Of a stretch of 64,000 nt of DNA, positions 1,540 through 64,000 are shown in pieces. The notes under the pieces were generated by a model that did no database searches, had not been told where the DNA came from, and saw only the letters and a program-made list of their open reading frames with translations. The DNA comes from Paraphysoderma sedebokerense (lineage: Eukaryota; Blastocladiomycota; Physodermatomycetes; Physodermatales; Physodermataceae). A program made the position numbers and the translations under genes. The stretch is from NCBI GenBank assembly GCA_025602915.1, contig JAHLJZ010000057.1, forward strand, positions 62,001 to 126,000. The letters run 5' to 3'. Numbering within the stretch: position 1 is the stretch's first letter; every line of letters starts with the position of its first letter.

Positions 1540-1629
1540 GTTTCGGTAGTGTAGTGGTTATCACGTTCGCCTCACAATCGCCCCTTGTGAGCCCGCGAAA
1601 GGTCTCGAGTTCAAACCTCGACCGAAACA
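1540..1629 (+). tRNA. tRNA-Val(CAC) with a 17-nt intron
   Basis: Cloverleaf: acceptor GTTTCGG (1540-1546) pairs with CCGAAAC (1622-1628), discriminator A at 1629. The D arm is GTG...CAC, the anticodon stem TTCGC/GCGAA and the T arm TCGAG-TTCAAAC-CTCGA. The anticodon loop is CT-CAC-A with the anticodon at 1573-1575. A 17-nt intron (1577-1593) sits after position 37, the canonical eukaryotic place. It contains TTGTGAG, the exact reverse complement of the loop bases CTCACAA, so the precursor can form the usual anticodon-intron helix recognised by the splicing endonuclease. Confidence 0.95.
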
Positions 1630-32134: not shown

Positions 32135-32446
32135 TCTATACTGATAAATATTTGAAGAAGAAATCCTTAAATACGACAACTGAAGTAATTGCAAGTCTTG
32201 GATTCTTTCAGTTGACAAACTCCGTAATTGATTTTGCGAGTGTTAAAGCCCGCCACGCCTTAGATACGTGATCCAAGGCGCCTGAATTTAAGAGAGCAAA
32301 ATGCGGAACAGCAATGATAGTAATTGCAATCAGGGTTGTATTTAGTGATACTGCTATAGCATATACATGCAATACAACTTGTCGTTCATATCGGGACAGC
32401 AACAGAGTAACAGGATAAACGGTAATACTAGTCTACAATGTGCAAT
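32135..32446. other. Intergenic between VWA8 start and NIF3 stop; contains repeat edge
   Basis: About 310 bp with the VWA8 promoter and NIF3 3' flank, both on the minus strand. The left edge of the 8-kb direct repeat falls inside it at 32383, only 64 bp beyond the NIF3 stop. Confidence 0.6.
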
Positions 32447-33660
32447 CTACATTATCACAAGGGGCTCTTCGTCAAACTTACTCACGACAACGTCAAAGCC
32501 TCCATCATCCTCTTTTTTCAACTCTGTATACAATTTCTCTGCTAGCACTGCTTCAAGAAACCCGCGTTCCGTATTTGTATGTTCACAAAGGATGACAGAA
32601 GTGTTATTCGCAACAGCTTGGAGAACTTCGTGGTGAGACATTTCACCTGTAAAAATGAGATCAGGGGGAGGGGAGAGTGGGAGAAGAACAGAGGATCCTG
32701 CATAATGGTTGAGGCTAAGATTAACTGATGAGAGCGAGAGCAGCAAAGAGCAAAGAGCAATTTACCGCTTCCGGCGCAGATTCCAACAGTTTCGATTCTT
32801 GAGGACCCATGACTTTCGGCCACTCGGACTACAAAGTTTGAAATGATATTCAATTGGACGAATGAGTGCTCGTTATGCAGAATAATCATACCATGTTTCA
32901 ATTTTAAATGAGCTTTAATTCGATCTACTGCCTCTAATAAAGTCAGAGGTTTGTCTAATGTAACCAGTCGACCCGATCCTTCTTGACCCGTGCCCTCTTT
33001 TGACGGTGCGGCCGGAATTCTAGTACCAGGGCCCAAACAGGAAGCCAACCAATCATTGACTAAGAGCACATTAGAATACAAGCGATCAAAAGAGAAGAGA
33101 ATATGGAATTTGACATCGATACTTGCTTCCTCCAACAGCAGCATCAAGGGAAGTATGAGGACTGTATATTGATATTCCACTTGCAGCGCACTTGAGTGCA
33201 ATTTCTTGTTTTACAGACTCAGGGTTGCCTGGTTTCGACATAGTAAGCTGTTTCCAGCCCCGAAATATTGGTGGATGATACTTCATTTAAGAAATGCCGA
33301 ATGTTGGCACGTCAAAAGGATGCTGAGGCCTCATCGACACGGTGGAGAAAGAGAAGAAAAATTACCGCAACGATGACACCACAAGAGGGATCATCAATAG
33401 CTTCACTAACAACATCCTTGGTAAGATCAATTGTCAAAAGCACTGTTGATGCATGCTGTCTCGGGTACGGGCCTGAGTATAGAAAATGATTTTTGTAAAT
33501 AGCTTACATAGCGGCAACACAGACAGGATGATATTGGTGGTATAGGTAAACGTTGCTTACACTCTACGAGGACACCGACATTGTCCCAGGCTGTCTCCGC
33601 AAATTTCAACGGCGCTATGCGGTCCATAGCACGGACAACACTGTTCAGCATTGTGTGCAT
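32447..33660 (-). CDS. NIF3: NIF3-like dinuclear metal-binding protein (copy 1)
   Basis: NIF3/YbgI family, a conserved di-metal fold of uncertain biochemical role. Start at 33660 gives MHTMLNSVVRAMDRIAPLKF and then ETAWDNVGVLVE, where the family begins; the open frame to 33933 is a leader overlapping the next gene's start. Exon 1 33660-33561 and exon 2 33472-33366 join in frame to give CPYPRQHASTVLLTIDLTKD. Exon 3 (from 33280) continues AYHPPIFRGWKQLTM, with the family metal-site region, then IYSPHTSLDAAVGG. The C-terminal part has RIETVGICAGSGK and FTGEMSHHEVLQAVANNTSV followed by ILCEHTNTERGFLE, all conserved NIF3 motifs. The splice after AAVGG is unclear (see findings). An identical copy is at 56000-57213. 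Confidence 0.9.
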
Positions 33661-33901
33661 TATTGTTAGTGTCTGATAAATGATACTCGATGGAATATTT
33701 TCTGCAAAAGATGAGTTTAACCAGTTCACTTTAGGGGCAGGCGGATAGTGGGACTCGGATAAAATCTGTTCATTATTAATGGAACACAAGGAAGGTGGCT
33801 TGGTCAAATGGAAACTCTGACGGTGGATTTTAGTTCCATTCCATCCCGCCTCCTTTCGAGTTCCATTCCTCAACTGCGGTGATAAGTTGGCTATCATTAG
33901 G
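33661..33901. promoter_or_regulatory. Shared divergent promoter of NIF3 and GHKL ATPase (copy 1)
   Basis: 241 bp separate the NIF3 start (minus) from the GHKL ATPase start (plus), so both promoters must overlap here or reach into the 5' ends. No TATA box or known box stands out. The same interval recurs at 57214-57454. Confidence 0.6.
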
Positions 33902-36900
33902 ATGGCTGCACATACGCAATTTGATAAGGCCAACTTTCAGGCTGCTCTGTCCTCCGGAATTGAAGAAAAAGTTGAAGTCAGTAAGTTGTCGTCAGTCCCG
34001 CTGAATCTACCGCCGTGAATTACTCTTCCACAAGAACTTGATTCCCTGCTCGTTCCTACTATTATATTAATAAATTCTCATATTTGAATAGACCAGCGAC
34101 ACTTGATTGACAAAATTTTGGCCAGATATTCGGCACAGTACACAGTTTTTAGAGAGTTATTACAGAATTCTAACGATGCCGGAGCCAAAGAAGTCGTTTT
34201 GCAGTTCCAAAGCCAAAATGATAATCAATCACAGAGTAGCAAGAAAATAGATACCGTAATATACAAAAATAACGGTAGAGTGTTTATGGAGCAGGATTGG
34301 AAACGTTTGAAGAGTATCGCCGAGGTTAGTGTTAATGCGTCGATTCCATTGGAAGACTCCCCGCTTTGTCATCAGTCGTCACTGACTAGTCCTCTCTTCA
34401 ACCTATACTTTAATCTTGCATTGTCATTCCCGCTTGAATATGTAGGGTAATCCGGATGAGACAAAGGTTGGATTTTTCGGGGTTGGGTTCTACAGTTTAT
34501 TTTCTATTTGCGAAGAGCCATTAGTTTCATCAGGAGATCAATGTCTTGGTTTTTTTTGGAGAGGTGATCAATTATTTTCAATGAAAGCTGTGGTTCCGGA
34601 GAATGTGTCTGCAGAGGAACGTTTGTGGACAACTTTCTATATGGATCTGAGGGAGCCTATGAAGCTGCCAGATCGTGATGATTTCTCCAAGTTTATTGCA
34701 ACTTCGCTCTCTTTCACTGAATTTCTGTGTACTGTTAAAGTATTTTACAACGACGAGCTTGTAATATCGCTGTCGAAGAAAAGTTCGCCCTTTCGAGACA
34801 TGCCGATTCCCGCTTATATAGAACGATCTAGTCCGAACAATGTATTGAAATTAAAGGCGGTTGAGATTCGACAGGTCCAGATGGAGGCAGAAGTTCTGCC
34901 TGAAGAAAATGCGTCGAAATTATCTTCGTTTCTCGGACTTGCTTCTCCTAAGACATCTCGCAAAGAGAAGGTCAGCTGTACTATTTTCCTCAGAATTGCC
35001 CGAGCTGTTGTAGATGTAAAACTTGGTGCGAATTTTGCCGCCTCCATGCAAAGAACTACCAAGAAACCCCCGCCATCTACAACTGTCATCCAACTTATAT
35101 ATACGAATTACGACGAATATGATGCGAGCGAGAAAATGCGGACTAAATATTCAGTTTTCAACGACATCGTGCCATTTCCGTCGCAAGGACGTGTTTTTAT
35201 CGGGTTCCCCACTCACCAGACAACTGGTTGTTCGATTCATTTAGCTGCGCACCTCATTCCAACAGTGGAAAGAGAAAATATAGATTTTGTTGATCCAATA
35301 TTGAATCAGTGGAATCAAGAGATACTTTCAATGGGAGGGCTATTGGCGAGAATCACCTATGATGATGAAATGAACGCTATTAATCGGCTTTATACTGAAA
35401 TCATTCAACCCGGCCGTAGAGAAGGGACGACGTTAAGCTCTCCGCCGTCTGAAGAATTTCTTTGGCTTTCCAAGAAAGCTATACATGCCATGAAATCATT
35501 CACTTTCCGGGATTCAACCCCAGCGTCTCTCGTTAACCGAATCATTTCGAGTTTCTTTTACAAGGCATCCAAACAGCCATTAGCGCTTCTCTCGACTCAT
35601 GGCGTCCTCCCTTGTCCAACCGTTCGTGTTTTTGATTCTGATACAGAAATGTTCGTCAAGAATGTGCCTGCGGTTCCAAAAAAGCTTCTCTCGGATGTTC
35701 CAGATTTCATCAAACCATTGCAGCAACAAGGTCTAATCCGTGATATTTCAAAGGAGGATGTGTTCCAAGAATTAGCGGGGCGAAATCTTCCTGAAAATGA
35801 AATTGTCGCTGCGCTCAAATGGTGGATCAAAGGCTGTAAAATTGGCCAATATAACGAGTCGGATCTTGTTTCGTTCAAACAACGATTAAAAATTACATCC
35901 GCAGACGAGACGCAGCCAAGAAAACTGGAAGCTATGAGGTACTTCCCGAACTACAGGGTATTGCCCCCCGATGTCCCCTTGTCAACCGACACTTTGCCGA
36001 TGAGTATATCCAAGCAGCTGATAGATTTAGATTTAGTCCAATGTCTTCGGTAAGCCTGCATTGTTTCCTATTTTACTGTGCCGTATTAACTTAAATTGCT
36101 TCAGTCTGTCTGAATTACCACTTTCGGCCTGGTCTGTCTTCATATCAGAACATCCATCATTCTCCGGTCAGAATGCATCACCTGAATTCGTGCAAAAAAT
36201 ATTCGGTGTTCTCTCGCGTGCTTTACCGAACTTAAATCATACCGAGAGAACCTACATTGTGTCTGCTTTTACTGTCAAATCATGTATTCCGACCACTAAA
36301 GGGTGGAGAACCCCAGCTGAAAGCTATTTCAAATCAGTGAATCTGTTTGAAGACCTCAGTGTAGTCCAGTTTCCTAATGAGAAAGTCGTGAGCCCAAAGT
36401 TGTTGGCAATGCTTGGAGTTAGAGAACATGTTGACTTGCAAATGATTTTTGACAAGCTAGACACCTTGAATTGGGATCATGTCCACTTGGTGAGAACAAA
36501 TTCGTCGTTTCTGTTGTCGTTCTGCTCTAATTATACCCAAAATTAGGTGAAATATCTGAGTACAGTCAGCGATAAACTTACAGATTCCGAGATAGCGAAA
36601 CTTAAAAATGCATACATCTTGCCTATTGAATCTAATGGTTCACCACAAACTATCTCAACCGATAAATCAAGTAACAACTCAGCAAGTGCCCAAGTAGCGC
36701 CGGCTGTACCTGGCACAACGGCTCATGTTCCATCTAAACGATTTCGGGCTCAAGATGTCTTCCCACCCACAGAGTTATTCCGATCCCTTAAACTCCCCAT
36801 TCTATCGTGGCCTCGAAATAAATGGCGATCGAATTCTCCCGAGACAAAGTTACTCCATCGTCTTGGGCTTCCGACACATTTGACTCTACAATACATCATC

Positions 36901-39900
36901 AACCAATGCTCACTGGCCACTACTGCATCTGAAACTCGACTTTCGTTGTTGCAATACTTTTCAAACAATTTTGAACACTACAGGTGTCAATATGATCCGT
37001 ATCGAATCACAGTCCCTTTTTTGCCCACCCAAGATGGAAGGTTGGCTCTCCCTAAGGACATATTTGTCGAGGAAGAGGTCAAGTTACTGGGATTTAATGT
37101 TTTATTGAAGGATTTGAAAGATAAAAAGGAATTATTAGGGGTTAGAGATCATCCTAGTGGAAAGGAGCTGGTGGATACATTACGTCAGAAGCCTCCAAGT
37201 TTAAAAGAAGCTGTAGCAGTATTCTCATATTTAACTGGGCTCCAGAAGGGTATGTTTTATGATTTCCTTCTTCCAGACAGCAGTTAATGAATCATTCTAA
37301 TTATGTAATTCTCCCTCATTGTAGAATTCTCAAGAACCGATTTTTCCGTTCTTCGTGACTTAAAGTTTATACCGATCGTTACGAAAGCTTCAGAAGAAAA
37401 ATATCATTATTCGGAACCGGGACGAGTTTATTTCTCAAATAATTCAAACAGGTACTCAAACAAGTCCTTGCTTTTTACAGTTTTCAGGCCTCTAACAAAT
37501 CATGGTTACGTTAGTTCCCACTTGCCGCCTGACTTATTCGAGTATATTGATTTCGGACTTCCAGCCAACAATTTTCTCCGAGCATGTGGCGTGAAAGACG
37601 AGCCTTCTCCTATTGAATTGGCGCAATTAGTACTTGAAGATCCGCGGCGATTTTTCGAATACGGGGTTGATCGGTATATCGCTATATTAAACCAATTGGC
37701 TGCCCATTGGGAAGTTATTAGATACAGCAGCGGATTGGTTAGTAAAATGAAGAAAACTAAATGGGTGATCGGTTTGAAAGTAGAAAGTCAGAATAAAGTG
37801 AAGGATGTTGAAACGCTTGCGGAGAAGGGTGAGGCCGAAAAAATAGATGAAGGAGAGTTGGCGAAGGAAAAGACTCTTGCGAATTGCGAGCTGGCTATTC
37901 CTGGAGATGTGTATTTAATTGATGGTGTGTTCTCTGTGTTCACTGATTCGTCATTGAATTATTTTTGTCTTTCCGTTTACTAACTGGTAGAGTCATTTTA
38001 GACCCCCTTCTTCAATCTATATTTTGTCCATTATCCTGCCCGTTAGAACCCACCTTAGAAAAGATGTACGAAGCCCTGGGAGCCCGGTGGCTCTCAAGAA
38101 TGGTCACATCGAAGTATAAACTTCACGGAACACCTATGCAGACATCACAATCTAAACGACTTCAAGCTCTCATACACCAACGTGGACCCTTGTTAATTTA
38201 CGATAACAATTCATTGAACAATAACGTCAAATCGAACGCTCAATCCACCATCGATTCATTAAGATGTCTACAAGCCGATGGGATTGAGATTCTTCGCGAA
38301 TTTAACAAATCAGTTCACAAACAACCTATTTCAGCTTGTGTAACTGAGGAGAGTTCTGGTCGTTGGGGTAGAAAAAGTGGGTATTTATTGATAGTAACGA
38401 AAGGCGAAGTTGACTTCTTCGATGTCGCTAGAGGATTGAGTGATTTGTTGTTTAAGAGGCCAAAATTGAATGATGCGCTGCTTTTGAGTACGATGTTAAG
38501 TACATCCCTGGATAACTTGCGGAGAAAAGGTTTGTTTAACATTGTCGCGGGTCTCGAACATCGCTGCTGTGTACTCACGATTCTTACTTGACAGGATTTC
38601 CTGTCGACAGAATTTTGAATATTGCCCCTCAGTTGAAGAAAGCAACACCGCCAGCCTCACCCTCATCTCAATCACCATCTCTGCAGCGAAAATTACCGGA
38701 ATTACCGTCCCCGCCAGATAATTCCAAAGACGGTTTCCAAATGTCACAAGAACTAGCGGCCTTTAAAGAGCTGAAAGAAATGTTTCCGGACGTGGATTCC
38801 AATTTTCTGCGTGGGCTTATACAAAAGGAAAAGGACAATCCTGTTATGAATGTTTCTAATCAGTTGTTAGATATGAAGTATCCTGTTGAGTCCAATCGAG
38901 AGGAGTCCCCAACGAAGTCGGAATTAGGACAAGATAGCTCGTTATCAAAATCGAATTCAAACTCAACGTTGGCCGAAAAGAAACCGTTACTGGAGAAACA
39001 GGAGAGTATTCCAGGCGGATTTTCCTCAGGACCATCATCTGGCGGAGGTGGCTTCGGAGGTGGTCTATTTGGATCATTATTAAACCAAGTTCAGCGTACC
39101 GTGGAGAACGCAGCCAAGCAAGCCGGGATTGACATCGCTCCAACTCAAACAACGCAACCCAAATCTCCCATTGCAGGCACAGGCCCATCATCTAGCAATG
39201 CGCCGCAACAAAGAAAAATCAGTGAAATTGATCCTGCTTTCAATCGCCATTTAAAATCAGATTTGGATTCTTCCATCCGCTCTTGTCGTCCGAATTCGAC
39301 ATCCTCCATTTCCTCCACCCCCTCTGTCGCCACTCTTGCCAACACGACATACTGTGATCTCACCCCAGGGCATGACCTACGACAAATAACTCAAATTGAG
39401 GCTGTTTCGGTTTGGCTAGATCCTGCAGTCTCGCCTGCTATCTTAGATACTTATCAACTCGGGCTATACAGTTTCATTCGAATGTTAAAAGAGTTGGCGC
39501 AGGTATTTGGCGTTCAAAATGACGCTTTGAATTTGTACATGGATGATAAAAATGAAACAGTTGCATTCAATCGCGGTCGCACGCTCTATTTTAATGCTGG
39601 GTTCTACTTGAAGATGCATTGGGAACAATCTAGAGGAGCGTTCACTCCGCGAACATCTGATTCTTATACTTATTGGTTCATGGTATGTTTTCTAATTTTG
39701 GATTTCCATGCAGCTATGCATTGTACTCACGTTTCATTGTGAATTTGTTATTTGAATAGGTGTTTGCGCACGAATTGGCGCACAATCATGTAGCGGCGCA
39801 TGATAGTCAACATGAATTTTACATGAGTAGTTATGCCAGTGTGTATATGGTTAAATTGATGAAGATGTTACTCGAGAAAGGAGTAGAACTTCAGATTTAG
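33902..39900 (+). CDS. GHKL (Hsp90/sacsin-like) ATPase with CUE-like and HExxH segments (copy 1)
   Basis: Large protein of the fungal DUF3684 type; function unknown. Ten exons (33902-33980, 34092-34324, 34446-36049, 36105-36489, 36547-37249, 37325-37451, 37488-37924, 37993-38529, 38595-39682, 39760-39900) sum to 5,334 nt, a continuous frame of 1,777 residues. The ATP site is of Bergerat fold: N-box ELLQNSNDAGAK (residues about 48-59) and G-box GNPDETKVGFFGVGFYSLFS (about 105), as in sacsin and Hsp90. Residues about 1418-1462 contain FKELKEMFPDVD and NQLLDMKYP, the MFP and di-Leu pattern of CUE ubiquitin-binding domains. A Ser/Gly-rich linker follows. The last exon encodes AHELAHNHVAAHDSQHEF, an HExxH metallopeptidase-like motif. 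The domain roles are inference. An identical copy is at 57455-63453. Confidence 0.88.
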
Positions 39901-40426
39901 AATTTGTGAACTTTCTGATAACGTACTTTTAATTGTAGAGTATCTCGTACCGTAGCATGTGAAATTGATGATGATTTGTGTATATACTGTACTTTTATTT
40001 AAGCATGAATGGAATTTACTCATTTTCCATGTCAATACGTTCGCATTCTCATTGACCCAAGTGCTCGCCAATGTTGGAGGGAGCATTCGGACTTAAATCG
40101 TCAATCTGAATCTTCCACAATCATTGGAAGAAAAGTAATCCCTCGTTTATATCGCAGATTGATGTCGTGATTTGGCGCTAGCATGAATTAGACTCGTTGA
40201 TCCCTGGCAAAAGTGTTGCCTTCCGTTTCAAAAATTCGCACTTATTCTGGTCACGTGACATTCACGCGGCATCAATGACGTTGGCCGGCATCAACAACGA
40301 GGGAGTACCTTTCCAGTTGTCTCCTTGCGTCCGTCCCCTCAGACATCACCGCAAACAACTCTGCAGAGAAAACGTACAAAACATACAATCCAAATACAGG
40401 AAATACCTCATTCTCCGATAAACGAA
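39901..40426. other. Intergenic between GHKL ATPase and monooxygenase genes
   Basis: About 525 bp with a 3' UTR and the promoter of the monooxygenase gene. It contains a palindromic GTCACGTGAC box. An in-frame ATG at 40325 could extend the downstream protein by 34 residues, but that stretch is basic and low in family character. The whole interval is in the direct repeat. Confidence 0.55.
40250..40259. promoter_or_regulatory. GTCACGTGAC palindrome upstream of monooxygenase gene
   Basis: Perfect 10-bp palindrome around a CACGTG E-box, about 170 bp upstream of the chosen start codon; probable bHLH (Cbf1-type) site by analogy. Repeated in copy 2 at 63803-63812. Confidence 0.45.
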
Positions 40427-42920
40427 ATGAATGCGACTGATATCTTTACTTCGTCATCTAATCTTTCATCTGAATACCCAGATTCACTCGTTGAAGAAGC
40501 TGTGATAAATGAATCAAACATCCTAGACGTTTTGGTCATTGGTGCTGGTCCTCATGCGTTAGCTTTCTTGACAAGATTACTGGAACCGTATCCATCTGCC
40601 ATTATGGATGATCGAGAACATTTGAGAGTACTCAGGTGGCGCAAACGTCAAAATGAACGGGAGGGGGATGAAAATGACCTAGTGTCGAAGCGGAAAAAAT
40701 TGGTCAAGGAAAAAGTAATGGTTGTCGATAGGTTTGGATTCTTCTATTTCATTCAATTTGTCAATTAGGCTTCTTAGGGATAAGACTAAACGTTATTGTT
40801 TGTTCTTTTTATAATGCAGGCATGGAAAATGGATGCACCAATGGAACTCGCAATTTGCCACATTCCAAATAGACAAATTGCGATCTCCAGTGTATTTTCA
40901 TCTAGATCCGTGAGTATCAATTTTTGTGCAAGCTTCGCTATAAATTTATATTAATGAACACATTTTATAGACATGATCACAGTGGGCTTCGTGCTTTCGC
41001 TGAAGAGACTGATCGGATGGACGAATTATACCATCTCGAAAATATTTTTGAGGACAAGAGTCATCGCAAACAGGATGGGTAAGTAGCTTGAATATCTTTT
41101 ATGCCGATATCATAGTTATCGCATTCGGGACTAAGATGTATAAGGTGTAATCATTAATACCACGGTTTTTTAATCTACCATCAAATAGAAAGAAATTTCG
41201 AACTCGAGGAACCCTATTTAATGAAACTCATCGCAATGAATACTTCGTCCCCTCGACCAAACTCTTTCATCATTTCAATCAAGAACTGTTGAAACGATAT
41301 TCACTCTCCGATTCAGCAATCATCAAAGCAGATGTCGTTTCTATCACGCCTGTGAATGGACCAGGAAGTTCAACGATATATCAAGTTTCCTTATCAAACG
41401 GAGAAATTGCTTACGCGCGAAGTGTGGTGTCTGCCATTGGAAATGCAAACCTCAAACGGGTTCCTTTATGGGCTCAAGATTTACGAGTCTCGGGATATCA
41501 AGACAAAATAGTTCATGCTTGGGAAATGAATCAAAACTGTATTCATGACATTGATGCAAACAGTGGCGAATCTACAATTGCTCAGAACAGTTCCAAATCT
41601 TTAGATGAATGTAAAATCTGTCAATTTGGTAAATTCACGGACAATGGCGAAATCAGGAAATCCTCTAAAAATTCACGTCGGAAAAAACTCAAGTCTCGGA
41701 ATCCCGAAAGGCACGCTGTTCCTAAAGCCAAATCTTTACAAAATCTCACACCAGCGAAACGACCTAGCATGTATCTTCCAATAGAAATATCTGCAGATAT
41801 TGAAGCGAAATTGCAATCGCCGAATCATCGACCGAAGCTCCTAATTGTCGGTGGAGGATTAACTGCCGCTCAATTAGCTCGTGTCGCGGTTGGTCGTGGG
41901 TTCGAGGAGGTTCCGTTATTTTTACTTACATAAGATGACATTAAAAGGATTATAATCTAATATTTTTATTGTATGAAACAGATTCAAATGATTACACGCT
42001 CGCACTTCAAGACGAAACAATTTGACGTTGATCTAACTTGGGTTGGTCGATACCGAGGTGTTTGCTTTCAAAAATTTTGGGAAGAGACTGATAAGTTCGG
42101 TAAATATCGCATTATTTTAAATTATACCCACAGAGTCACTTATTTCTTTTTTTTTTATTATAGAACGTGTCAAGATGATTCGGCGTGCCAGAAATGGTGG
42201 CAGTATTACACCTGAGATGATGAGTGTTTTGAAACAATACATCAACAACGGCATCCTTCGTATGCAAAATCAATGCGAAGTAACGAACTGCATTCGTTGT
42301 GAGGACACCAATAAATTTAAAGTGACATATTCCAACGGAGAAACAGATTATGTGGATTTAATTTGGCTGGCTACAGGAAGGTAAGGGAATATATTCTGGA
42401 ATTTATATTTAAAGTGTCGTTGCTGAAATACGTAATCTCTAGCTTCTTAGATGCAAGACAAGAGCCCATATTCAAAAATTTTATGGATGAGTTCGACGTG
42501 TCTACAGTAGAAGGATTCCCAGATGTCACTGAAGGTAAAGTTTATCACAAAACACGCAAAATCAGGGACTGCAATCTAAATTGATATTCTACACCACCAG
42601 ACCTGCGACTCCATCCTGATCACAACGTTTTCGTTCTTGGAGGTTATGCTTCACTTCAGTTAGGACCAAACGCTATCAATCTAATCGGAAGTAGAGCAGG
42701 CAGTGAACGTGTTGTAAGTGTTTTGGAAGGATTGTTAGACTTGGGATTTGAAAGCGATGTAACAGATGAGATCCAGGATTCTGGAATTGGTTCTGAGGAC
42801 GGGGATGATGTAGATATTCAAAAGAAAGAAATTTGGAAGGGACAGAAAGCTATTGAGGTATTTTCTAATGCTGGTAACTGGTTTGAAGTCTTGGATGGAT
42901 TGGGCGATGAAGAGGATTAA
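40427..42920 (+). CDS. FAD/NAD(P)-binding monooxygenase-like protein (ornithine/lysine monooxygenase fold)
   Basis: Flavoprotein resembling L-ornithine/lysine N-monooxygenases and OSGIN-type proteins; substrate unknown. Start 40427 gives MNATDIFTSSSNLSSEY; the FAD-binding Rossmann motif VLVIGAGPHALAFLTRLL follows at about residue 36. After intron 1 comes HGKWMHQWNSQFATFQIDKL and RSPVYFHLDP, a block typical of this group. The NADPH-binding motif LLIVGGGLTAAQLARVAVGR is at about 41840-41900. Further blocks are GVCFQKFWEETD, NGGSITPEMMSVLKQYI, YVDLIWLATG and, near the end, HPDHNVFVLGGYASLQLGPN with NLIGSRAGSERVV. The C-terminus is acidic and ends GLGDEED. About seven introns. A Ser/Lys-rich insert lies between the two nucleotide-binding motifs. 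The first 21 nt are repeated at 63980. Confidence 0.82.
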
Positions 42921-43073
42921 TGTGTTGTCAACCGATCCGGTTTTGACGATTGTTAATTGATTGGTTTAGCAAATATGATTAAGAATATTACATTTATTGA
43001 GCGATAAGATCGTTATGCTGTATGAATCTTTGTGACATGCGAAAATTTGTATATACAACGACTGAGAGCGCGA

Positions 43074-44695: not shown

Positions 44696-45218
44696 TATGT
44701 AAAGAGGGAATGGATAATGATGAGTCTCGCACTATGATATCAATATATAACCGATATTAAGACATTGCATCTCTATCACGTGATTACTGCGATATAGCAA
44801 CGAAGCTATTGCCCGGGCATTAAAATGCATAGACACATAAAAACGGCAATAATTAAAGTCTTTACCCAAATTCAGGAATTAAAGATCCCATAATAAACAG
44901 ATGTACGTTTAATCTAGACTCATGAGACTACGAGGACGCCAAGATTATATGTCGGAGAGCGTCCAAATTTCGAATTATATGCTCTGGTAATTGTATCTGG
45001 GATGGCTAATGGAATTATGGAAAGGAAGATAGTAGCAAATTTGAGTTCAAATTGTCGGAATTTATGTGACCGAGATGCAAAATGTGGACGTGAGAAGCCC
45101 ATTCCATATAATTAAACTTGATACGGGGTGCCTGAAATCTATATTCACCACATTGTTGCTCTTCAATCCGACTGCCTTCCCCATTCATTACCAGACTGCA
45201 TAGAGATATATATTACCT
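44696..45218. other. Intergenic divergent promoter (ETT1-like / kinesin)
   Basis: About 520 bp between genes transcribed apart, with a palindromic E-box at 44775-44784. No RNA gene or coding frame recognised. Confidence 0.55.
44775..44784. promoter_or_regulatory. ATCACGTGAT palindrome in divergent promoter
   Basis: Perfect 10-bp palindrome with a CACGTG core, 80 bp upstream of the ETT1-like start codon. Same core as the boxes at 15713 and 40250. Probable bHLH factor site; function inferred. Confidence 0.45.
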
Positions 45219-51998: not shown

Positions 51999-52052
51999 GG
52001 CGCGCAGAAGAGGAAAAAGGAAGGGAAGGGAGGGAGCGGAAGACAAGGAATA
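51999..52052 (-). promoter_or_regulatory. Pyrimidine-rich leader upstream of pyruvate kinase start
   Basis: Read on the minus strand, the bases just before the pyruvate kinase ATG are almost all C and T (for example CTCCCTCCCTTCCC and CCTTTTTCCTCTTCTG). CT-rich tracts close to the start are typical of highly expressed glycolytic genes in filamentous fungi. Inference from position and composition only. Confidence 0.5.
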
Positions 52053-53790
52053 CGAAAGCATAACTACCATGCAAGAGATCCATTCTAGCTTTGTGGTGAC
52101 GAGGTCGGCCATTCTGTGTCTGTATTGGGGAGATGAGGGAGGACAGCTGTCTGCGTTTCTGCAGGAAGGATGCGGTGTTATCGATGCGAGCATTTTTCGG
52201 GCGACTTTGGATACAGGAGAGAAAAGGGGAATTTCTGCCTCAGATCAATTAAGCTCAAATTCCCACCTCAACGCAGAGAAGAACATCTATCCCTCATCAT
52301 CGTCATCATCATCTCCACCATCATCATCCGTATCATGGACCACTGCGAATTCGTCTTGTGTCGATTATGTTGGTTCCGGCCCAGCGCACGTCACTCATGA
52401 TACTCGTATAATTATTGCCGTGATTCGAAATAAATACTAGATGAAATATAATATTCGTGGCATGTTTCATTATAATATTGGATCTATGCTATTGCACAAG
52501 TTATGGCAAAATTCAATTATGATCATCTCACTGCAGTATATAAATAGAGTATTTATTCATTAATGTGGCACATATGGGATTTTGAAATATAATATCATGA
52601 ACCGACATCGACACAAATTGGAAGAATCAAATATCATCCGGAATGATGCTTATAGTAGTTCGGCTCCCGCCAATGATTGAGGACCCGTTGCCGTCAATAC
52701 CTTAAGCATCTCAAATATGAGCATACGATGAAGCTCTCCTGGCTATTAATAGTTTTTTGGCTTCCATGATAGCTTATGTTCAAGCATGTTATGTTTTTTA
52801 TCGATCAATAGCCTAACTGTGTAAAATTATCGGGCACTATCTGCGTTTATCATGCATAATTGCGCCCCAGGCTTCGCCCATACCATTGCCATCCCGGGGA
52901 CAACCGTTTAATGAGGCAGCTAATATGATCGATATTCTCTGAATCGGCTAATCTGACCCTACTCGGTTCATTCCGCTGCAATCAATGTCATCTCAAAATT
53001 TCCATTATTCACTGAAAGGAAAGGACAAAAAAAAATTTGCAGAAATTAAAAATGATGAACCGATATTCAATACCATTTGTTTTTCAATTTTCTGTTAATT
53101 TCTGAAGATTTTTTTCCCTTCAGCCATGAGAGATCCAAAATGCATAAACCTGACAGTTGGACAAAAGCCAACCCAGATAATATGCGTGACATCACTTGTC
53201 AATCTAGCGGCAAAGTCGTTACGGTTTAATCATTAATGGGCAAGCATGCATCCAAATCGGCCCACTATGCCAGAAGCGGTACTCGAATAAGTGTAGCGGC
53301 ATTCTAAATATTAAACAAAGGGCAGGGGAATTGGGAATAAAAGCTTCCACTTTTTAGACAAGCAAAAAGAATTCCAGATGCGTGTGATTTGAGCGAGGAA
53401 CCGCTTCCCTCCTGACATCAGCAATAATCTCTGCGGACTCCCCGTCTCTGTCGTTGCGAGAATTGCTTCTTATATTGTCCTGAGCATCTAGTACACTAAA
53501 AGTATATCACACAGTATCAGGGTCGCTGTACTTCGTCTGTATTTCGTCTGAATTGCACTGTTTGTCAATTCGTCATATAGTCCCGACCCAATTTTAGCAA
53601 CAAAGCGTGCAGACGGTATGTGTGGCTGTTGACTTAAAAGCATTTTCAGTCGACAACTTTTTATTCTCTTCTCAGACGTCTTTCGGACTTTTGCAAAGAA
53701 GTGAACCTGACATTGTATCATTCGTCCCCTTCATCCTTTGCATAGACTTCCTGCTCTTCCAGCTCGGCCCTCTAACTGAATCCGATAATA
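52053..53790. other. Long intergenic region, promoters of pyruvate kinase and LEA-2 gene
   Basis: About 1.7 kb between divergent genes. It includes a TCA/TCC-type simple repeat (about 52293-52338), AT-rich blocks with TATA-like runs (52443-52620) and an A-run (53026-53036). The plus-strand frame from 51997 to 52440 lies antisense to the pyruvate kinase leader and is not convincing. No further gene recognised. Confidence 0.55.
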
Positions 53791-55528
53791 ATGGCTTCGT
53801 CAAACCAAAATGCATCATCACAGCAGCATTACAACCATAACCTGGACTCTGAATATGCCGCTTCTGCATCCGCTCTATTGTCTGCCCTACCTACTAGTCA
53901 GCATCCGATGAATAACTCCTCTAGCGGTTATCCGCAGAACATCACTTATGACCCAAATTATCAACAGTCTGATAATGTGATTTCCTTGGTAGACTATTCA
54001 GAAGACTCGGGAGATTCATTGGATATACCGAATCAAGATATTCCCGCTACGACTGTATTGGAGAATGGGCCAAATGTTACCAACGAGAGTCGTCCTCCTC
54101 GAACTCCAGAGTCAGCTTTGAACTCCCAACGTCAGTCTCCCCATCCTCCGAGACAAAGTTATATTCGAAGCAGCACAATGGGATCACCGTTACAACCGAA
54201 CCCATCAGTAAATGGTTATTCTTCAACAACTCAGGGCCAAGCTATTGCAACCCCCCAGTCTCAATTTGCCAGTCAGCAGTTCTATTCGCCGTATCCTCAA
54301 CACCCATCTGAAGCAAGCAACTCTGCTGTATCATTTAGTTCATTGGAGAATCCTCAATTGAATTCTCAATATTCAGCACAACAAGCTCCGCCATCTTTTT
54401 CCGACGGTCAACCCAGACCAATGTCAGAAATGTATGCAAATCGACCCACGGCCGCTGCTGCTCCCGTTATGCCATCATTCCGCAATAGTATCGCTTCCCC
54501 GAACTCTGCGCAGCAGACTCAGTCTCAACAGAAGCCCGCTCCGACATACTTGAATTATGATAATTTTTCCAATGAGCCTGCCCCAGCGCCCCCGCCAAAG
54601 CACTCTCATAATATGTCTAGTTCCTCCGCTTTTCCCTACAATCGAACTTCACCTGCATATGTGCATCCTCAACATCAACACTCTTCGTCATCTGTTTCTC
54701 TTCCTTATGGTCAACCGAATACCCATTCTCAAATGACTCTAACGGAATCCACGAATAAACCTCTTCCTGTCATCGAACCCACCCGTCCCCCGACCAGTAA
54801 GCGTCCACCCCCATCTGATCCTTCGCAAGCACCACCACCTCGCCGCCGATACTGTCGCTTTAGAACTCGTCTTGGATGTTGTTGCTGCTTCTCATTCTTA
54901 TTCCTTATTTTGATAGCGGCTGGTTTAGCAGTGTTCTTTGTGTTCTTTTTCAAAGCGCCCAATGTTCAATTCGACAGAGCAGTACCTCCGTCTGACGCAC
55001 AACCATTTACTATTCAAAGCGACGGTACCTGGACAATAAATTGGGGACTTAGATTTAACGCTACCAATCAAAACTTTTTTACAATCAATCTGAATAATTT
55101 GGCAGTCAATGTACGCTCATTTTTCTTTTTTATCCAACACATGTGTGTATCAAATTTAACGCAATCCTTTTAATTTCCGTTACTTTTTTCAGGGTTTCCC
55201 CACTGCTGAACGAACACCGCCCGCTCTAGCTACAGGCAGTCTCCCTAATTTGTCCCTTGCCTCAAACCAACCCAACCAATTTACTCTCCCGTTCCAAATC
55301 ACATATAATCCTTCAACGGCCCTAACGGATCCTCGCTCACAATTCTTGGTAGAACTAGTTAGATCTTGCACTGGTTCCGACAATGGTAGAATCAAAATGT
55401 TTGTAAACATAGAAGTTGGCTGGGTGGTAATTAGTTGGACAGGATACAAATTTAAGTTTGATCGTGATTTAGATTTTGCTTGTCCGGTTGATTTAAGAAA
55501 TTTACGTGATCGGCTGGGACAACGGTAA
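53791..55528 (+). CDS. Single-pass membrane protein with C-terminal LEA-2-like domain
   Basis: Two exons, 53791-55110 and 55193-55528, give 551 residues. Residues 1-350 are disordered, rich in Ser, Pro, Gln and Asn, with Pro-rich patches (PAPAPPPK, PPPSDPSQAPPPRRR). A basic stretch RRRYCRFRTRLG is followed by four cysteines (363-366) and a hydrophobic segment (about 367-387), so the N-terminal part is probably cytosolic and the Cys cluster a palmitoylation candidate. After the membrane segment come APNVQFDRAVPPSDAQPFTI and WTINWGLRFNATNQNFFTIN, the pattern of LEA-2/NDR1-HIN1-like beta domains, with NFTLPFQITYN-type strands in exon 2. Fungal proteins of this layout are known but not characterised. 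The role is unknown. Confidence 0.82.
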
Positions 55529-55891
55529 TCGATGGAAGATTTTAATGGCTTTTGTGAGTTGGTTTTGGGTGATCACGGAGAGAGAACAAAAGCAAAATGG
55601 AAAAAAAATTGATACTGTTCTTGCTTTTATTATTTATATCTTGAGTACTTTTTCTTGTATAAAATATAAATGTACTATCGAATTGATGAATTGATTTAAA
55701 CTGTTCGATAAATTGATCGATATCAAGTAACTTTGCAGGGAAAAATAAAAATCATCAGATTTGGGAATTTGGACATATTTAAGGTCGCTGCAGAGCAGTC
55801 CAACCAGGTATAAAAGCGGGAATGATATGAACTTTTCTGTCGTCCTTGCGTTAATGTAATATCATTCGTATTGCGACCACATCTCTCAGTT
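55529..55891. other. Intergenic, 3' flank of LEA-2 gene
   Basis: About 360 bp, AT-rich, with a TATAAAA element at 55810-55816 roughly 80 bp before the partial tRNA. No other gene seen. Confidence 0.5.
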
Positions 55892-55935
55892 GTCTTCGTG
55901 GTGTAGTCGGTTATCACGTCTGTCTAACACACAGA
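55892..55935 (+). pseudogene. 5' half of a tRNA-Val(AAC) gene, cut at the repeat junction
   Basis: Acceptor 5' strand GTCTTCG, D arm GTG...CAC with the AGTCGGTTA loop, anticodon stem TCTGT/ACAGA and loop CTAACAC with anticodon AAC, all as in fungal tRNA-Val. The match stops exactly at the last base of the anticodon stem (55935). The next base begins the repeated segment, and no T arm or 3' acceptor strand follows. Whether a whole gene exists elsewhere depends on what lies beyond the repeat. Confidence 0.85.
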
Positions 55936-55999
55936 CGTTCATATCGGGACAGCAACAGAGTAACAGGATAAACGGTAATACTAGTCTACAATGTGCAAT

Positions 56000-57213
56000 C
56001 TACATTATCACAAGGGGCTCTTCGTCAAACTTACTCACGACAACGTCAAAGCCTCCATCATCCTCTTTTTTCAACTCTGTATACAATTTCTCTGCTAGCA
56101 CTGCTTCAAGAAACCCGCGTTCCGTATTTGTATGTTCACAAAGGATGACAGAAGTGTTATTCGCAACAGCTTGGAGAACTTCGTGGTGAGACATTTCACC
56201 TGTAAAAATGAGATCAGGGGGAGGGGAGAGTGGGAGAAGAACAGAGGATCCTGCATAATGGTTGAGGCTAAGATTAACTGATGAGAGCGAGAGCAGCAAA
56301 GAGCAAAGAGCAATTTACCGCTTCCGGCGCAGATTCCAACAGTTTCGATTCTTGAGGACCCATGACTTTCGGCCACTCGGACTACAAAGTTTGAAATGAT
56401 ATTCAATTGGACGAATGAGTGCTCGTTATGCAGAATAATCATACCATGTTTCAATTTTAAATGAGCTTTAATTCGATCTACTGCCTCTAATAAAGTCAGA
56501 GGTTTGTCTAATGTAACCAGTCGACCCGATCCTTCTTGACCCGTGCCCTCTTTTGACGGTGCGGCCGGAATTCTAGTACCAGGGCCCAAACAGGAAGCCA
56601 ACCAATCATTGACTAAGAGCACATTAGAATACAAGCGATCAAAAGAGAAGAGAATATGGAATTTGACATCGATACTTGCTTCCTCCAACAGCAGCATCAA
56701 GGGAAGTATGAGGACTGTATATTGATATTCCACTTGCAGCGCACTTGAGTGCAATTTCTTGTTTTACAGACTCAGGGTTGCCTGGTTTCGACATAGTAAG
56801 CTGTTTCCAGCCCCGAAATATTGGTGGATGATACTTCATTTAAGAAATGCCGAATGTTGGCACGTCAAAAGGATGCTGAGGCCTCATCGACACGGTGGAG
56901 AAAGAGAAGAAAAATTACCGCAACGATGACACCACAAGAGGGATCATCAATAGCTTCACTAACAACATCCTTGGTAAGATCAATTGTCAAAAGCACTGTT
57001 GATGCATGCTGTCTCGGGTACGGGCCTGAGTATAGAAAATGATTTTTGTAAATAGCTTACATAGCGGCAACACAGACAGGATGATATTGGTGGTATAGGT
57101 AAACGTTGCTTACACTCTACGAGGACACCGACATTGTCCCAGGCTGTCTCCGCAAATTTCAACGGCGCTATGCGGTCCATAGCACGGACAACACTGTTCA
57201 GCATTGTGTGCAT
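56000..57213 (-). CDS. NIF3: NIF3-like dinuclear metal-binding protein (copy 2)
   Basis: Second copy of the NIF3-like gene, identical in exons and introns to 32447-33660. Landmarks fall at the same offsets: MHTMLNSVVRAMDRIAPLKF at the start and FTGEMSHHEVLQ near the end. The only difference is context. Its 3' end now points at the half tRNA-Val(AAC), 64 bp away, instead of the VWA8 promoter. Intact as read, so it could be expressed if the duplication is real. Confidence 0.88.
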
Positions 57214-57454
57214 TATTGTTAGTGTCTGATAAATGATACTCGATGGAATATTTTCTGCAAAAGATGAGTTTAACCAGTTCACTTTAGGGGCAGGCGGATA
57301 GTGGGACTCGGATAAAATCTGTTCATTATTAATGGAACACAAGGAAGGTGGCTTGGTCAAATGGAAACTCTGACGGTGGATTTTAGTTCCATTCCATCCC
57401 GCCTCCTTTCGAGTTCCATTCCTCAACTGCGGTGATAAGTTGGCTATCATTAGG
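57214..57454. promoter_or_regulatory. Shared divergent promoter of NIF3 and GHKL ATPase (copy 2)
   Basis: Copy of 33661-33901, unchanged, so both duplicated genes keep their complete promoter interval. Confidence 0.55.
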
Positions 57455-60400
57455 ATGGCTGCACATACGCAATTTGATAAGGCCAACTTTCAGGCTGCTC
57501 TGTCCTCCGGAATTGAAGAAAAAGTTGAAGTCAGTAAGTTGTCGTCAGTCCCGCTGAATCTACCGCCGTGAATTACTCTTCCACAAGAACTTGATTCCCT
57601 GCTCGTTCCTACTATTATATTAATAAATTCTCATATTTGAATAGACCAGCGACACTTGATTGACAAAATTTTGGCCAGATATTCGGCACAGTACACAGTT
57701 TTTAGAGAGTTATTACAGAATTCTAACGATGCCGGAGCCAAAGAAGTCGTTTTGCAGTTCCAAAGCCAAAATGATAATCAATCACAGAGTAGCAAGAAAA
57801 TAGATACCGTAATATACAAAAATAACGGTAGAGTGTTTATGGAGCAGGATTGGAAACGTTTGAAGAGTATCGCCGAGGTTAGTGTTAATGCGTCGATTCC
57901 ATTGGAAGACTCCCCGCTTTGTCATCAGTCGTCACTGACTAGTCCTCTCTTCAACCTATACTTTAATCTTGCATTGTCATTCCCGCTTGAATATGTAGGG
58001 TAATCCGGATGAGACAAAGGTTGGATTTTTCGGGGTTGGGTTCTACAGTTTATTTTCTATTTGCGAAGAGCCATTAGTTTCATCAGGAGATCAATGTCTT
58101 GGTTTTTTTTGGAGAGGTGATCAATTATTTTCAATGAAAGCTGTGGTTCCGGAGAATGTGTCTGCAGAGGAACGTTTGTGGACAACTTTCTATATGGATC
58201 TGAGGGAGCCTATGAAGCTGCCAGATCGTGATGATTTCTCCAAGTTTATTGCAACTTCGCTCTCTTTCACTGAATTTCTGTGTACTGTTAAAGTATTTTA
58301 CAACGACGAGCTTGTAATATCGCTGTCGAAGAAAAGTTCGCCCTTTCGAGACATGCCGATTCCCGCTTATATAGAACGATCTAGTCCGAACAATGTATTG
58401 AAATTAAAGGCGGTTGAGATTCGACAGGTCCAGATGGAGGCAGAAGTTCTGCCTGAAGAAAATGCGTCGAAATTATCTTCGTTTCTCGGACTTGCTTCTC
58501 CTAAGACATCTCGCAAAGAGAAGGTCAGCTGTACTATTTTCCTCAGAATTGCCCGAGCTGTTGTAGATGTAAAACTTGGTGCGAATTTTGCCGCCTCCAT
58601 GCAAAGAACTACCAAGAAACCCCCGCCATCTACAACTGTCATCCAACTTATATATACGAATTACGACGAATATGATGCGAGCGAGAAAATGCGGACTAAA
58701 TATTCAGTTTTCAACGACATCGTGCCATTTCCGTCGCAAGGACGTGTTTTTATCGGGTTCCCCACTCACCAGACAACTGGTTGTTCGATTCATTTAGCTG
58801 CGCACCTCATTCCAACAGTGGAAAGAGAAAATATAGATTTTGTTGATCCAATATTGAATCAGTGGAATCAAGAGATACTTTCAATGGGAGGGCTATTGGC
58901 GAGAATCACCTATGATGATGAAATGAACGCTATTAATCGGCTTTATACTGAAATCATTCAACCCGGCCGTAGAGAAGGGACGACGTTAAGCTCTCCGCCG
59001 TCTGAAGAATTTCTTTGGCTTTCCAAGAAAGCTATACATGCCATGAAATCATTCACTTTCCGGGATTCAACCCCAGCGTCTCTCGTTAACCGAATCATTT
59101 CGAGTTTCTTTTACAAGGCATCCAAACAGCCATTAGCGCTTCTCTCGACTCATGGCGTCCTCCCTTGTCCAACCGTTCGTGTTTTTGATTCTGATACAGA
59201 AATGTTCGTCAAGAATGTGCCTGCGGTTCCAAAAAAGCTTCTCTCGGATGTTCCAGATTTCATCAAACCATTGCAGCAACAAGGTCTAATCCGTGATATT
59301 TCAAAGGAGGATGTGTTCCAAGAATTAGCGGGGCGAAATCTTCCTGAAAATGAAATTGTCGCTGCGCTCAAATGGTGGATCAAAGGCTGTAAAATTGGCC
59401 AATATAACGAGTCGGATCTTGTTTCGTTCAAACAACGATTAAAAATTACATCCGCAGACGAGACGCAGCCAAGAAAACTGGAAGCTATGAGGTACTTCCC
59501 GAACTACAGGGTATTGCCCCCCGATGTCCCCTTGTCAACCGACACTTTGCCGATGAGTATATCCAAGCAGCTGATAGATTTAGATTTAGTCCAATGTCTT
59601 CGGTAAGCCTGCATTGTTTCCTATTTTACTGTGCCGTATTAACTTAAATTGCTTCAGTCTGTCTGAATTACCACTTTCGGCCTGGTCTGTCTTCATATCA
59701 GAACATCCATCATTCTCCGGTCAGAATGCATCACCTGAATTCGTGCAAAAAATATTCGGTGTTCTCTCGCGTGCTTTACCGAACTTAAATCATACCGAGA
59801 GAACCTACATTGTGTCTGCTTTTACTGTCAAATCATGTATTCCGACCACTAAAGGGTGGAGAACCCCAGCTGAAAGCTATTTCAAATCAGTGAATCTGTT
59901 TGAAGACCTCAGTGTAGTCCAGTTTCCTAATGAGAAAGTCGTGAGCCCAAAGTTGTTGGCAATGCTTGGAGTTAGAGAACATGTTGACTTGCAAATGATT
60001 TTTGACAAGCTAGACACCTTGAATTGGGATCATGTCCACTTGGTGAGAACAAATTCGTCGTTTCTGTTGTCGTTCTGCTCTAATTATACCCAAAATTAGG
60101 TGAAATATCTGAGTACAGTCAGCGATAAACTTACAGATTCCGAGATAGCGAAACTTAAAAATGCATACATCTTGCCTATTGAATCTAATGGTTCACCACA
60201 AACTATCTCAACCGATAAATCAAGTAACAACTCAGCAAGTGCCCAAGTAGCGCCGGCTGTACCTGGCACAACGGCTCATGTTCCATCTAAACGATTTCGG
60301 GCTCAAGATGTCTTCCCACCCACAGAGTTATTCCGATCCCTTAAACTCCCCATTCTATCGTGGCCTCGAAATAAATGGCGATCGAATTCTCCCGAGACAA

Positions 60401-63400
60401 AGTTACTCCATCGTCTTGGGCTTCCGACACATTTGACTCTACAATACATCATCAACCAATGCTCACTGGCCACTACTGCATCTGAAACTCGACTTTCGTT
60501 GTTGCAATACTTTTCAAACAATTTTGAACACTACAGGTGTCAATATGATCCGTATCGAATCACAGTCCCTTTTTTGCCCACCCAAGATGGAAGGTTGGCT
60601 CTCCCTAAGGACATATTTGTCGAGGAAGAGGTCAAGTTACTGGGATTTAATGTTTTATTGAAGGATTTGAAAGATAAAAAGGAATTATTAGGGGTTAGAG
60701 ATCATCCTAGTGGAAAGGAGCTGGTGGATACATTACGTCAGAAGCCTCCAAGTTTAAAAGAAGCTGTAGCAGTATTCTCATATTTAACTGGGCTCCAGAA
60801 GGGTATGTTTTATGATTTCCTTCTTCCAGACAGCAGTTAATGAATCATTCTAATTATGTAATTCTCCCTCATTGTAGAATTCTCAAGAACCGATTTTTCC
60901 GTTCTTCGTGACTTAAAGTTTATACCGATCGTTACGAAAGCTTCAGAAGAAAAATATCATTATTCGGAACCGGGACGAGTTTATTTCTCAAATAATTCAA
61001 ACAGGTACTCAAACAAGTCCTTGCTTTTTACAGTTTTCAGGCCTCTAACAAATCATGGTTACGTTAGTTCCCACTTGCCGCCTGACTTATTCGAGTATAT
61101 TGATTTCGGACTTCCAGCCAACAATTTTCTCCGAGCATGTGGCGTGAAAGACGAGCCTTCTCCTATTGAATTGGCGCAATTAGTACTTGAAGATCCGCGG
61201 CGATTTTTCGAATACGGGGTTGATCGGTATATCGCTATATTAAACCAATTGGCTGCCCATTGGGAAGTTATTAGATACAGCAGCGGATTGGTTAGTAAAA
61301 TGAAGAAAACTAAATGGGTGATCGGTTTGAAAGTAGAAAGTCAGAATAAAGTGAAGGATGTTGAAACGCTTGCGGAGAAGGGTGAGGCCGAAAAAATAGA
61401 TGAAGGAGAGTTGGCGAAGGAAAAGACTCTTGCGAATTGCGAGCTGGCTATTCCTGGAGATGTGTATTTAATTGATGGTGTGTTCTCTGTGTTCACTGAT
61501 TCGTCATTGAATTATTTTTGTCTTTCCGTTTACTAACTGGTAGAGTCATTTTAGACCCCCTTCTTCAATCTATATTTTGTCCATTATCCTGCCCGTTAGA
61601 ACCCACCTTAGAAAAGATGTACGAAGCCCTGGGAGCCCGGTGGCTCTCAAGAATGGTCACATCGAAGTATAAACTTCACGGAACACCTATGCAGACATCA
61701 CAATCTAAACGACTTCAAGCTCTCATACACCAACGTGGACCCTTGTTAATTTACGATAACAATTCATTGAACAATAACGTCAAATCGAACGCTCAATCCA
61801 CCATCGATTCATTAAGATGTCTACAAGCCGATGGGATTGAGATTCTTCGCGAATTTAACAAATCAGTTCACAAACAACCTATTTCAGCTTGTGTAACTGA
61901 GGAGAGTTCTGGTCGTTGGGGTAGAAAAAGTGGGTATTTATTGATAGTAACGAAAGGCGAAGTTGACTTCTTCGATGTCGCTAGAGGATTGAGTGATTTG
62001 TTGTTTAAGAGGCCAAAATTGAATGATGCGCTGCTTTTGAGTACGATGTTAAGTACATCCCTGGATAACTTGCGGAGAAAAGGTTTGTTTAACATTGTCG
62101 CGGGTCTCGAACATCGCTGCTGTGTACTCACGATTCTTACTTGACAGGATTTCCTGTCGACAGAATTTTGAATATTGCCCCTCAGTTGAAGAAAGCAACA
62201 CCGCCAGCCTCACCCTCATCTCAATCACCATCTCTGCAGCGAAAATTACCGGAATTACCGTCCCCGCCAGATAATTCCAAAGACGGTTTCCAAATGTCAC
62301 AAGAACTAGCGGCCTTTAAAGAGCTGAAAGAAATGTTTCCGGACGTGGATTCCAATTTTCTGCGTGGGCTTATACAAAAGGAAAAGGACAATCCTGTTAT
62401 GAATGTTTCTAATCAGTTGTTAGATATGAAGTATCCTGTTGAGTCCAATCGAGAGGAGTCCCCAACGAAGTCGGAATTAGGACAAGATAGCTCGTTATCA
62501 AAATCGAATTCAAACTCAACGTTGGCCGAAAAGAAACCGTTACTGGAGAAACAGGAGAGTATTCCAGGCGGATTTTCCTCAGGACCATCATCTGGCGGAG
62601 GTGGCTTCGGAGGTGGTCTATTTGGATCATTATTAAACCAAGTTCAGCGTACCGTGGAGAACGCAGCCAAGCAAGCCGGGATTGACATCGCTCCAACTCA
62701 AACAACGCAACCCAAATCTCCCATTGCAGGCACAGGCCCATCATCTAGCAATGCGCCGCAACAAAGAAAAATCAGTGAAATTGATCCTGCTTTCAATCGC
62801 CATTTAAAATCAGATTTGGATTCTTCCATCCGCTCTTGTCGTCCGAATTCGACATCCTCCATTTCCTCCACCCCCTCTGTCGCCACTCTTGCCAACACGA
62901 CATACTGTGATCTCACCCCAGGGCATGACCTACGACAAATAACTCAAATTGAGGCTGTTTCGGTTTGGCTAGATCCTGCAGTCTCGCCTGCTATCTTAGA
63001 TACTTATCAACTCGGGCTATACAGTTTCATTCGAATGTTAAAAGAGTTGGCGCAGGTATTTGGCGTTCAAAATGACGCTTTGAATTTGTACATGGATGAT
63101 AAAAATGAAACAGTTGCATTCAATCGCGGTCGCACGCTCTATTTTAATGCTGGGTTCTACTTGAAGATGCATTGGGAACAATCTAGAGGAGCGTTCACTC
63201 CGCGAACATCTGATTCTTATACTTATTGGTTCATGGTATGTTTTCTAATTTTGGATTTCCATGCAGCTATGCATTGTACTCACGTTTCATTGTGAATTTG
63301 TTATTTGAATAGGTGTTTGCGCACGAATTGGCGCACAATCATGTAGCGGCGCATGATAGTCAACATGAATTTTACATGAGTAGTTATGCCAGTGTGTATA

Positions 63401-63453
63401 TGGTTAAATTGATGAAGATGTTACTCGAGAAAGGAGTAGAACTTCAGATTTAG
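57455..63453 (+). CDS. GHKL (Hsp90/sacsin-like) ATPase with CUE-like and HExxH segments (copy 2)
   Basis: Second copy of the 1,777-residue protein, with ten exons at the copy 1 positions plus 23,553. N-box, G-box, CUE-like segment and HExxH are all kept. No change was seen in coding or intron sequence, so it is either a very young paralogue or an assembly duplicate. Flanks on both sides are also part of the repeat. Confidence 0.86.
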
Positions 63454-63979
63454 AATTTGTGAACTTTCTGATAACGTACTTTTAATTGTAGAGTATCTCG
63501 TACCGTAGCATGTGAAATTGATGATGATTTGTGTATATACTGTACTTTTATTTAAGCATGAATGGAATTTACTCATTTTCCATGTCAATACGTTCGCATT
63601 CTCATTGACCCAAGTGCTCGCCAATGTTGGAGGGAGCATTCGGACTTAAATCGTCAATCTGAATCTTCCACAATCATTGGAAGAAAAGTAATCCCTCGTT
63701 TATATCGCAGATTGATGTCGTGATTTGGCGCTAGCATGAATTAGACTCGTTGATCCCTGGCAAAAGTGTTGCCTTCCGTTTCAAAAATTCGCACTTATTC
63801 TGGTCACGTGACATTCACGCGGCATCAATGACGTTGGCCGGCATCAACAACGAGGGAGTACCTTTCCAGTTGTCTCCTTGCGTCCGTCCCCTCAGACATC
63901 ACCGCAAACAACTCTGCAGAGAAAACGTACAAAACATACAATCCAAATACAGGAAATACCTCATTCTCCGATAAACGAA
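63454..63979. other. Intergenic (copy 2 of 39901-40426)
   Basis: Same content as the first copy, including the GTCACGTGAC palindrome at 63803-63812. Confidence 0.55.
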
Positions 63980-64000
63980 ATGAATGCGACTGATATCTTT
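63980..64000 (+). CDS. Start of second monooxygenase-like gene, cut by window end
   Basis: First seven codons (MNATDIF) of the FAD/NAD(P)-binding monooxygenase-like gene, identical to 40427-40447. The rest lies outside the window. Whether the copy is complete cannot be told. Confidence 0.7.

Follow-up and report, generated by a model that had tools for sequence, protein, structure and literature searches.

An apparent 23.5-kb tandem duplication in the draft genome of Paraphysoderma sedebokerense is probably one assembly-graph edge printed twice

In the draft genome of the blastocladiomycete Paraphysoderma sedebokerense (GCA_025602915.1; 27.29 Mb in 195 contigs), a 23,553-bp unit (U) stands twice, head to tail and without a single difference, on contig JAHLJZ010000057.1 (C57; other contigs are named in the same way). 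Here we analysed a window of 64,000 nucleotides (C57:62001-126000), together with the rest of the contig to its right; positions called extended continue the window numbering rightward over C57:126001-156752. The second copy is probably an assembly artefact, in which one edge of the assembly graph was printed twice, and the doubled 23.5-kb block is most likely absent from the organism. A real duplication and an extrachromosomal circle, taken jointly, are left with a small share of the probability.

Inside the window, direct comparison of 32383-40447 with 55936-64000 at an offset of 23,553 gave 0 mismatches in 8065 bp. This agrees with the preliminary description of this DNA, which had reported a match at one constant offset, proposed that the unit ends and begins again directly with its first base, and suggested looking right of 64000. 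The sequence there completes the second copy: copy 1 occupies 32383-55935 and copy 2 extended 55936-79488 (C57:117936-141488), with 0 differences in 23,553 bp, after which the contig enters other sequence. The exact match extends over 23,555 bp, since a CG is common to both sides of the join; breakpoint homology, previously put at about 10 bp at most, thus measures 2 bp. Chance cannot account for a match this long. Contigs below 10 kb seem to have been dropped from the assembly, as numbering tracks size in the sampled contigs and the last one, C195, is 10,333 bp. In the contigs of at least 10 kb, probes from the unit's start, middle and end each found two places, except that the tRNA part of the end probe also matches other tRNA genes, and the 24-mer of the junction occurs once; no third copy was found with these probes in the same contigs. 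Two simple explanations were rejected: a haplotype duplication would predict differences between the copies, yet there are none, and a misjoin through a k-mer shared by the breakpoints is not supported, as only the CG is common to them.

From contig ends and from two joins that independently give the number 55, we infer a short-read de Bruijn assembly with k=55. For short reads, SPAdes uses k values of 21, 33 and 55 by default. Two of the tRNA-Val genes matched by the end of the unit sit at contig ends: C128 stops at tRNA position 49, and C78 starts at position 20. Leaving aside each end's own place and the C128/C78 duplicate described below, the last 55 bases of C128 recur at one other tRNA-Val locus and the first 55 of C78 at four other places, but lengthening either by a single base to 56 leaves no match. 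The end of C16 also switches from shared to unique sequence at 55, there inside a 56-bp local repeat. Altogether, the switch falls at exactly 55 bases in 3 of 42 contig ends, which were compared with fetched sequence only, own duplicates being set aside. A long-read assembly is disfavoured by these 55-base ends and by contigs that stop at tRNA repeats. At least six matches to reverse-transcriptase loci were obtained, five of them above the cut-off, which fits either collapsed repeats or a repeat-poor genome; the repeats that would reveal branches of the graph are probably among the dropped contigs. Since a 23.5-kb repeat is stored in a k=55 graph as a single sequence, any two printings of it must agree at every base; zero divergence is therefore no evidence of youth, and the copy number says little.

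Other head-to-tail pairs exist in the assembly. C78 carries a 26,433-bp unit twice (57047-83479 and 83480-109912) and C20 a 4,372-bp unit twice (318260-322631 and 322632-327003), both pairs reaching the contig end; pair identity was sampled rather than followed throughout (in C78 at the start, middle and end). The C78 unit also opens C79 and C55, but with 55 extra bases in front of it in each, giving a shared edge of 26,488 bp (26,433 + 55). Those 55 bases stand before copy 1 in C78 and not before copy 2. A similar deficit is found on C57 itself, at 147310/147311 (extended 85310/85311): the final 9442 bp of the contig (147311-156752) equal C128:56-9497, and the first 55 bases of C128 are absent at the start of this stretch. 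Both joins match the appending of an edge with a k-base trim, without a true overlap, and the part of C57 right of 147310 may be foreign to the locus. A real graph edge at the C78 junction was rejected: it would place the starts of C79 and C55 near C78:57045, whereas both lie at 56992, in keeping with a period of the edge minus 55; in this comparison the final two of the 55 bases match coincidentally. At the C78/C79 join, CAAAG was read by eye as common. Two further observations concern these loci. The C78 unit is printed four times in three contigs (C78:57047-109912, C79:1-26488 and C55:1-26488, as sampled); past it, the sequences of C79 and C55 part at the very next base and enter GGGACA-rich repeats, a divergence that perhaps reflects two alleles. 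By eye, the sequence left of C57:147310 resembles a diverged C128 start.

Re-use of sequence is not limited to these joins. Among 33 contig ends, at least 10 have their 80 terminal bases repeated at another place (an end in a satellite excluded; 40 of 113 candidates scored), namely the start and end of C1, the starts of C40 and C57, and the ends of C4, C20, C25, C58, C70 and C78. This recurrence elsewhere in the assembly, as tandem pairs in C78 and C20 and as re-used ends, speaks for an artefact. C128:40857-49228 equals C78:1-8372 over 8372 identical bp, bounded by tRNA-Val genes in direct orientation. C58:137398-153471 coincides with C136:1-16074 (16.1 kb) and C1:1-6052 with C85:6052-1 (6.1 kb), where the ends of the overlaps were checked. 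Sharing was followed over 80-248 bases only for C4, C25, C40, C70 and the C1 end, and is short between C57 and C109 (first 100 bases only). The overlap of C25 with C98 does not begin at the place tried, and the C2 end, with a 97% match elsewhere, stands outside the count. The ends of C1 and C4 were considered as tandem pairs and rejected; each is found again within its own contig, but the repeats are not neighbouring tandem copies with the periods in question. Short repeats of CCTAA type were also seen at the starts of C16, C70, C57 and C109 and at the end of C30, partly common between contigs (182 bp for C16/C70 and 100 bp for C57/C109); such ends are either telomere-like or part of a repeat family.

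The right end of the unit lies in a tRNA-Val(AAC) gene. The intact gene lies across the right edge of copy 2, at extended 79445-79518, and copy 1 runs to tRNA position 44 and then directly into CGTTCATATC, the start of the unit. A 55-mer common to the tRNA-Val locus at C128:40838 covers extended 79439-79493, i.e., up to tRNA position 49, which is where a k=55 edge is expected to end. The break in copy 1 falls 3-5 bp before this position, with one mismatch to the shared 55-mer, at base 55938. Joining the expected edge end to the sequence from 32388 onward predicts the observed junction except for that base; this is a weak prediction, as the split point was fitted and the free bases are only 55938-55940, two of three agreeing. 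Five points of the kind expected to end an edge are known on C57, four at Val-type tRNA genes and one at the 147310 join; a break placed at random would have a chance of about 0.0004 of lying within 5 bp of any of them, a figure that further points would raise. As for other tRNA sequences, a bacterial-mode ARAGORN scan of the window was negative. Unusually long tRNA-family matches were seen at window 1540-1629 and extended 80403-80494, the latter resembling a Val gene with a short insertion, 958 bp past the Val(AAC) gene at the end of copy 2.

These observations suggest how the second copy could have been produced. The stretch ending at 55940 would be one edge in the k=55 graph, ended where the tRNA-Val gene can no longer be told from a second tRNA-Val locus. 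This edge would have been appended to itself by the path builder as though a 55-base overlap always held, so that the second printing begins 55 bases into the edge, and consensus correction drawing on reads from around 32383 would perhaps then have altered base 55938. The k=55 signature, the two joins elsewhere that are 55 bases short (one of them in C57), the other head-to-tail repeats and the break near the expected edge end are all observed; a common origin for the join between the two copies of U, the place where its edge starts and the correction of the base would extend these observations to the present locus.

Several points weigh against this explanation. The junction requires one unexplained base change, at 55938, and the model requires the path builder to append an edge to itself. 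No contig of at least 10 kb starts at 32333, nor at the corresponding position of C20, so that the 55-base trim has no independent witness for either unit. Among 33 contig ends (40 of 113 candidates scored; contigs of at least 10 kb), no further exact 55-base match was found. If tRNA genes attract breaks, one inside this gene would lie no more than 5 bp from the edge end with a chance of about 11/74, which is not rare. Finally, common bases at joins, such as the CG between the copies of U and the CAAAG of C78/C79, are also left by microhomology-mediated events. The mere three free bases of the junction prediction, and the fact that an in-gene break near the edge end is not rare, slightly lower the probability of an artefact, which we still hold to be probable.

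The junction also bears on a real tandem duplication in the sequenced strain, which could stem from stalling or breakage of a replication fork at the tRNA-Val gene, with 2-bp microhomology (CG) at the join; in the assembler the copies would then have merged into a single edge, and the loop left in the graph would have been printed twice. Indeed, the breakpoint lies within a tRNA gene and shows microhomology, the copies are head to tail with the outer right flank intact, as in a tandem duplication, and the rightmost tRNA is intact, as the geometry requires. In the available part of a yeast study, a segmental duplication in a rad1 mutant has 8 nt of microhomology inside a tRNA gene (PMC2518615), and two copies of simulated tandem arrays were printed in a SPAdes benchmark, according to the portion of that paper at hand (PMC6052550). 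However, the break falls only 3-5 bp from where a k=55 edge is predicted to terminate, the pairs on C78 and C20 each finish with the last base of their contig, and the C78 period equals the edge length less 55. On balance, such a duplication seems unlikely to us. A 23.5-kb extrachromosomal circle, whose closure junction was threaded into the chromosome by the assembler, meets the same objections, and nothing specific to a circle was seen; closure at the CG would yield the same junction sequence and the probes gave no third copy in contigs of at least 10 kb, yet we regard it as the least credible of the alternatives. A chimeric library or amplification molecule joining the end of the unit to its start, with the assembler using that edge, would accord with the homology of only 2 bp at the join, but it leaves unexplained both the closeness to the k=55 edge end and the 55-base deficits at the other joins, and is very improbable.

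The yeast duplications attributed to microhomology/microsatellite-induced replication (MMIR) are the closest biological parallel. As described in the accessible part of that work, they likewise show tandem geometry, microhomology and a tRNA gene at one sequenced breakpoint, but they were shown experimentally and have 5-10 bp of microhomology or microsatellites (PMC2518615). Here the junction has neither, its homology being the 2-bp CG, and the break lies beside an assembly-edge end. False duplications through mis-assembly have long been known, to judge from the available parts of two reports (PMC2864568, PMC9516828), and there too false segmental duplications give the appearance of a recent duplication that the genome need not have. 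In the part of the first report available to us, divergent haplotypes were built twice (PMC2864568), whereas the copies here are identical and the apparent cause is one edge printed twice with a 55-base trim. We did not find this 55-base-trim form of false duplication in a limited search of the literature. For de Bruijn loop traversal, the accessible portion of the SPAdes benchmark reports that simulated two-unit repeats came out as two copies whatever the setting, and that arrays of 3-5 units came out as two copies in most paired settings but as none when pairs were not used; the assembler failed to reconstruct several of the real arrays (PMC6052550). Two copies may thus be printed there as well though the true number can be larger. 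The units described in that portion are at most 612 bp and real (PMC6052550), and the C78 and C57/C128 joins here lack the k-mer overlap needed for a graph loop.

The features of the locus are collected in Table 1. The left edge of the unit, 32383, sits between a plus-strand open reading frame (ORF) that ends at 32271 and the 3′ end of the NIF3 gene near 32447, the latter about 65 bp inside the unit, and no gene crosses it. In the Sacsin-type gene, PF12449 matches at 34446-36053 and 36547-37287 (E=5.4e-113 and 9.4e-46); some homologs of this DUF3684 protein carry the name Sacsin/Nov, and its ten best matches have 37-44% identity, the best named ones being from Ambispora (42%) and Cetraspora (43%). 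An RPB2 exon of this genome shares 74-80% identity with its five best matches, and the two proteins together indicate a fungus close to the early-diverging groups. The "LEA-2" label given earlier to the last gene was not confirmed, as a Pfam scan of its main ORF alone gave no match.

Table 1. Features of the repeated unit and its junction (window coordinates)
Feature	Position	Strand	Evidence or remark
First printing of the 23,553-bp unit (U)	32383..55935	+	Identical to extended 55936-79488
Second printing of U, part within the window	55936..64000	+	Runs on to C57:141488
tRNA-Val(AAC), 5′ part	55892..55935	+	Truncated after tRNA position 44 (46 counting the shared CG)
55-mer where the locus turns shared with the tRNA-Val locus C128:40838	55886..55940	+	Expected graph-edge end
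Putative first 55-mer of the graph edge of U	32333..32387	+	Position predicted under the artefact model
NIF3/DUF34 gene	32447..33936	-	PF01784 E=2.3e-6 at 32542-33210; other exons predicted from ORFs
Sacsin/Nov-type (GHKL) protein, DUF3684	34446..38591	+	PF12449; remainder predicted from ORFs
Kinesin	46738..48414	+	PF00225 E=2.9e-19; motor-domain end 46738-47349, then an ORF without Pfam match
Pyruvate kinase exons	49440..51177	-	PF00224 E=7.4e-62, PF02887 E=7.1e-28
Membrane protein ("LEA-2" of the preliminary description)	53776..55528	+	ORFs 53776-55173 (main) and 55160-55528 (last)

That an early-diverging fungus very recently gained a real tandem copy of 23.5 kb, or a circle, with a tRNA-Val breakpoint and a doubling of the genes for pyruvate kinase, kinesin, NIF3 and the Sacsin-type protein, is improbable. 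If true, it would suggest, together with the C78 and C20 pairs, a genome in repeated tandem amplification, here at an RNA polymerase III gene. The preliminary description had favoured a very recent duplication, doubling NIF3, the GHKL ATPase and more, a view that is no longer the best supported now that identity follows by construction from a k=55 graph; assembly error, which it had listed among its options, is. Its argument that so little shared breakpoint sequence speaks against misassembly is weakened by the two other joins, which start 55 bases into an edge without k-mer overlap.

With one edge printed twice, the identity and the number of the copies carry no biological information. Taken at face value, the assembly would supply spurious recent duplicates for an entire block of genes, together with seemingly comparable pairs on two or more further contigs. 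The C78 signature, a period equal to the edge length minus k and contig starts displaced by k, offers a test for errors of this kind in draft genomes that does not need the reads.

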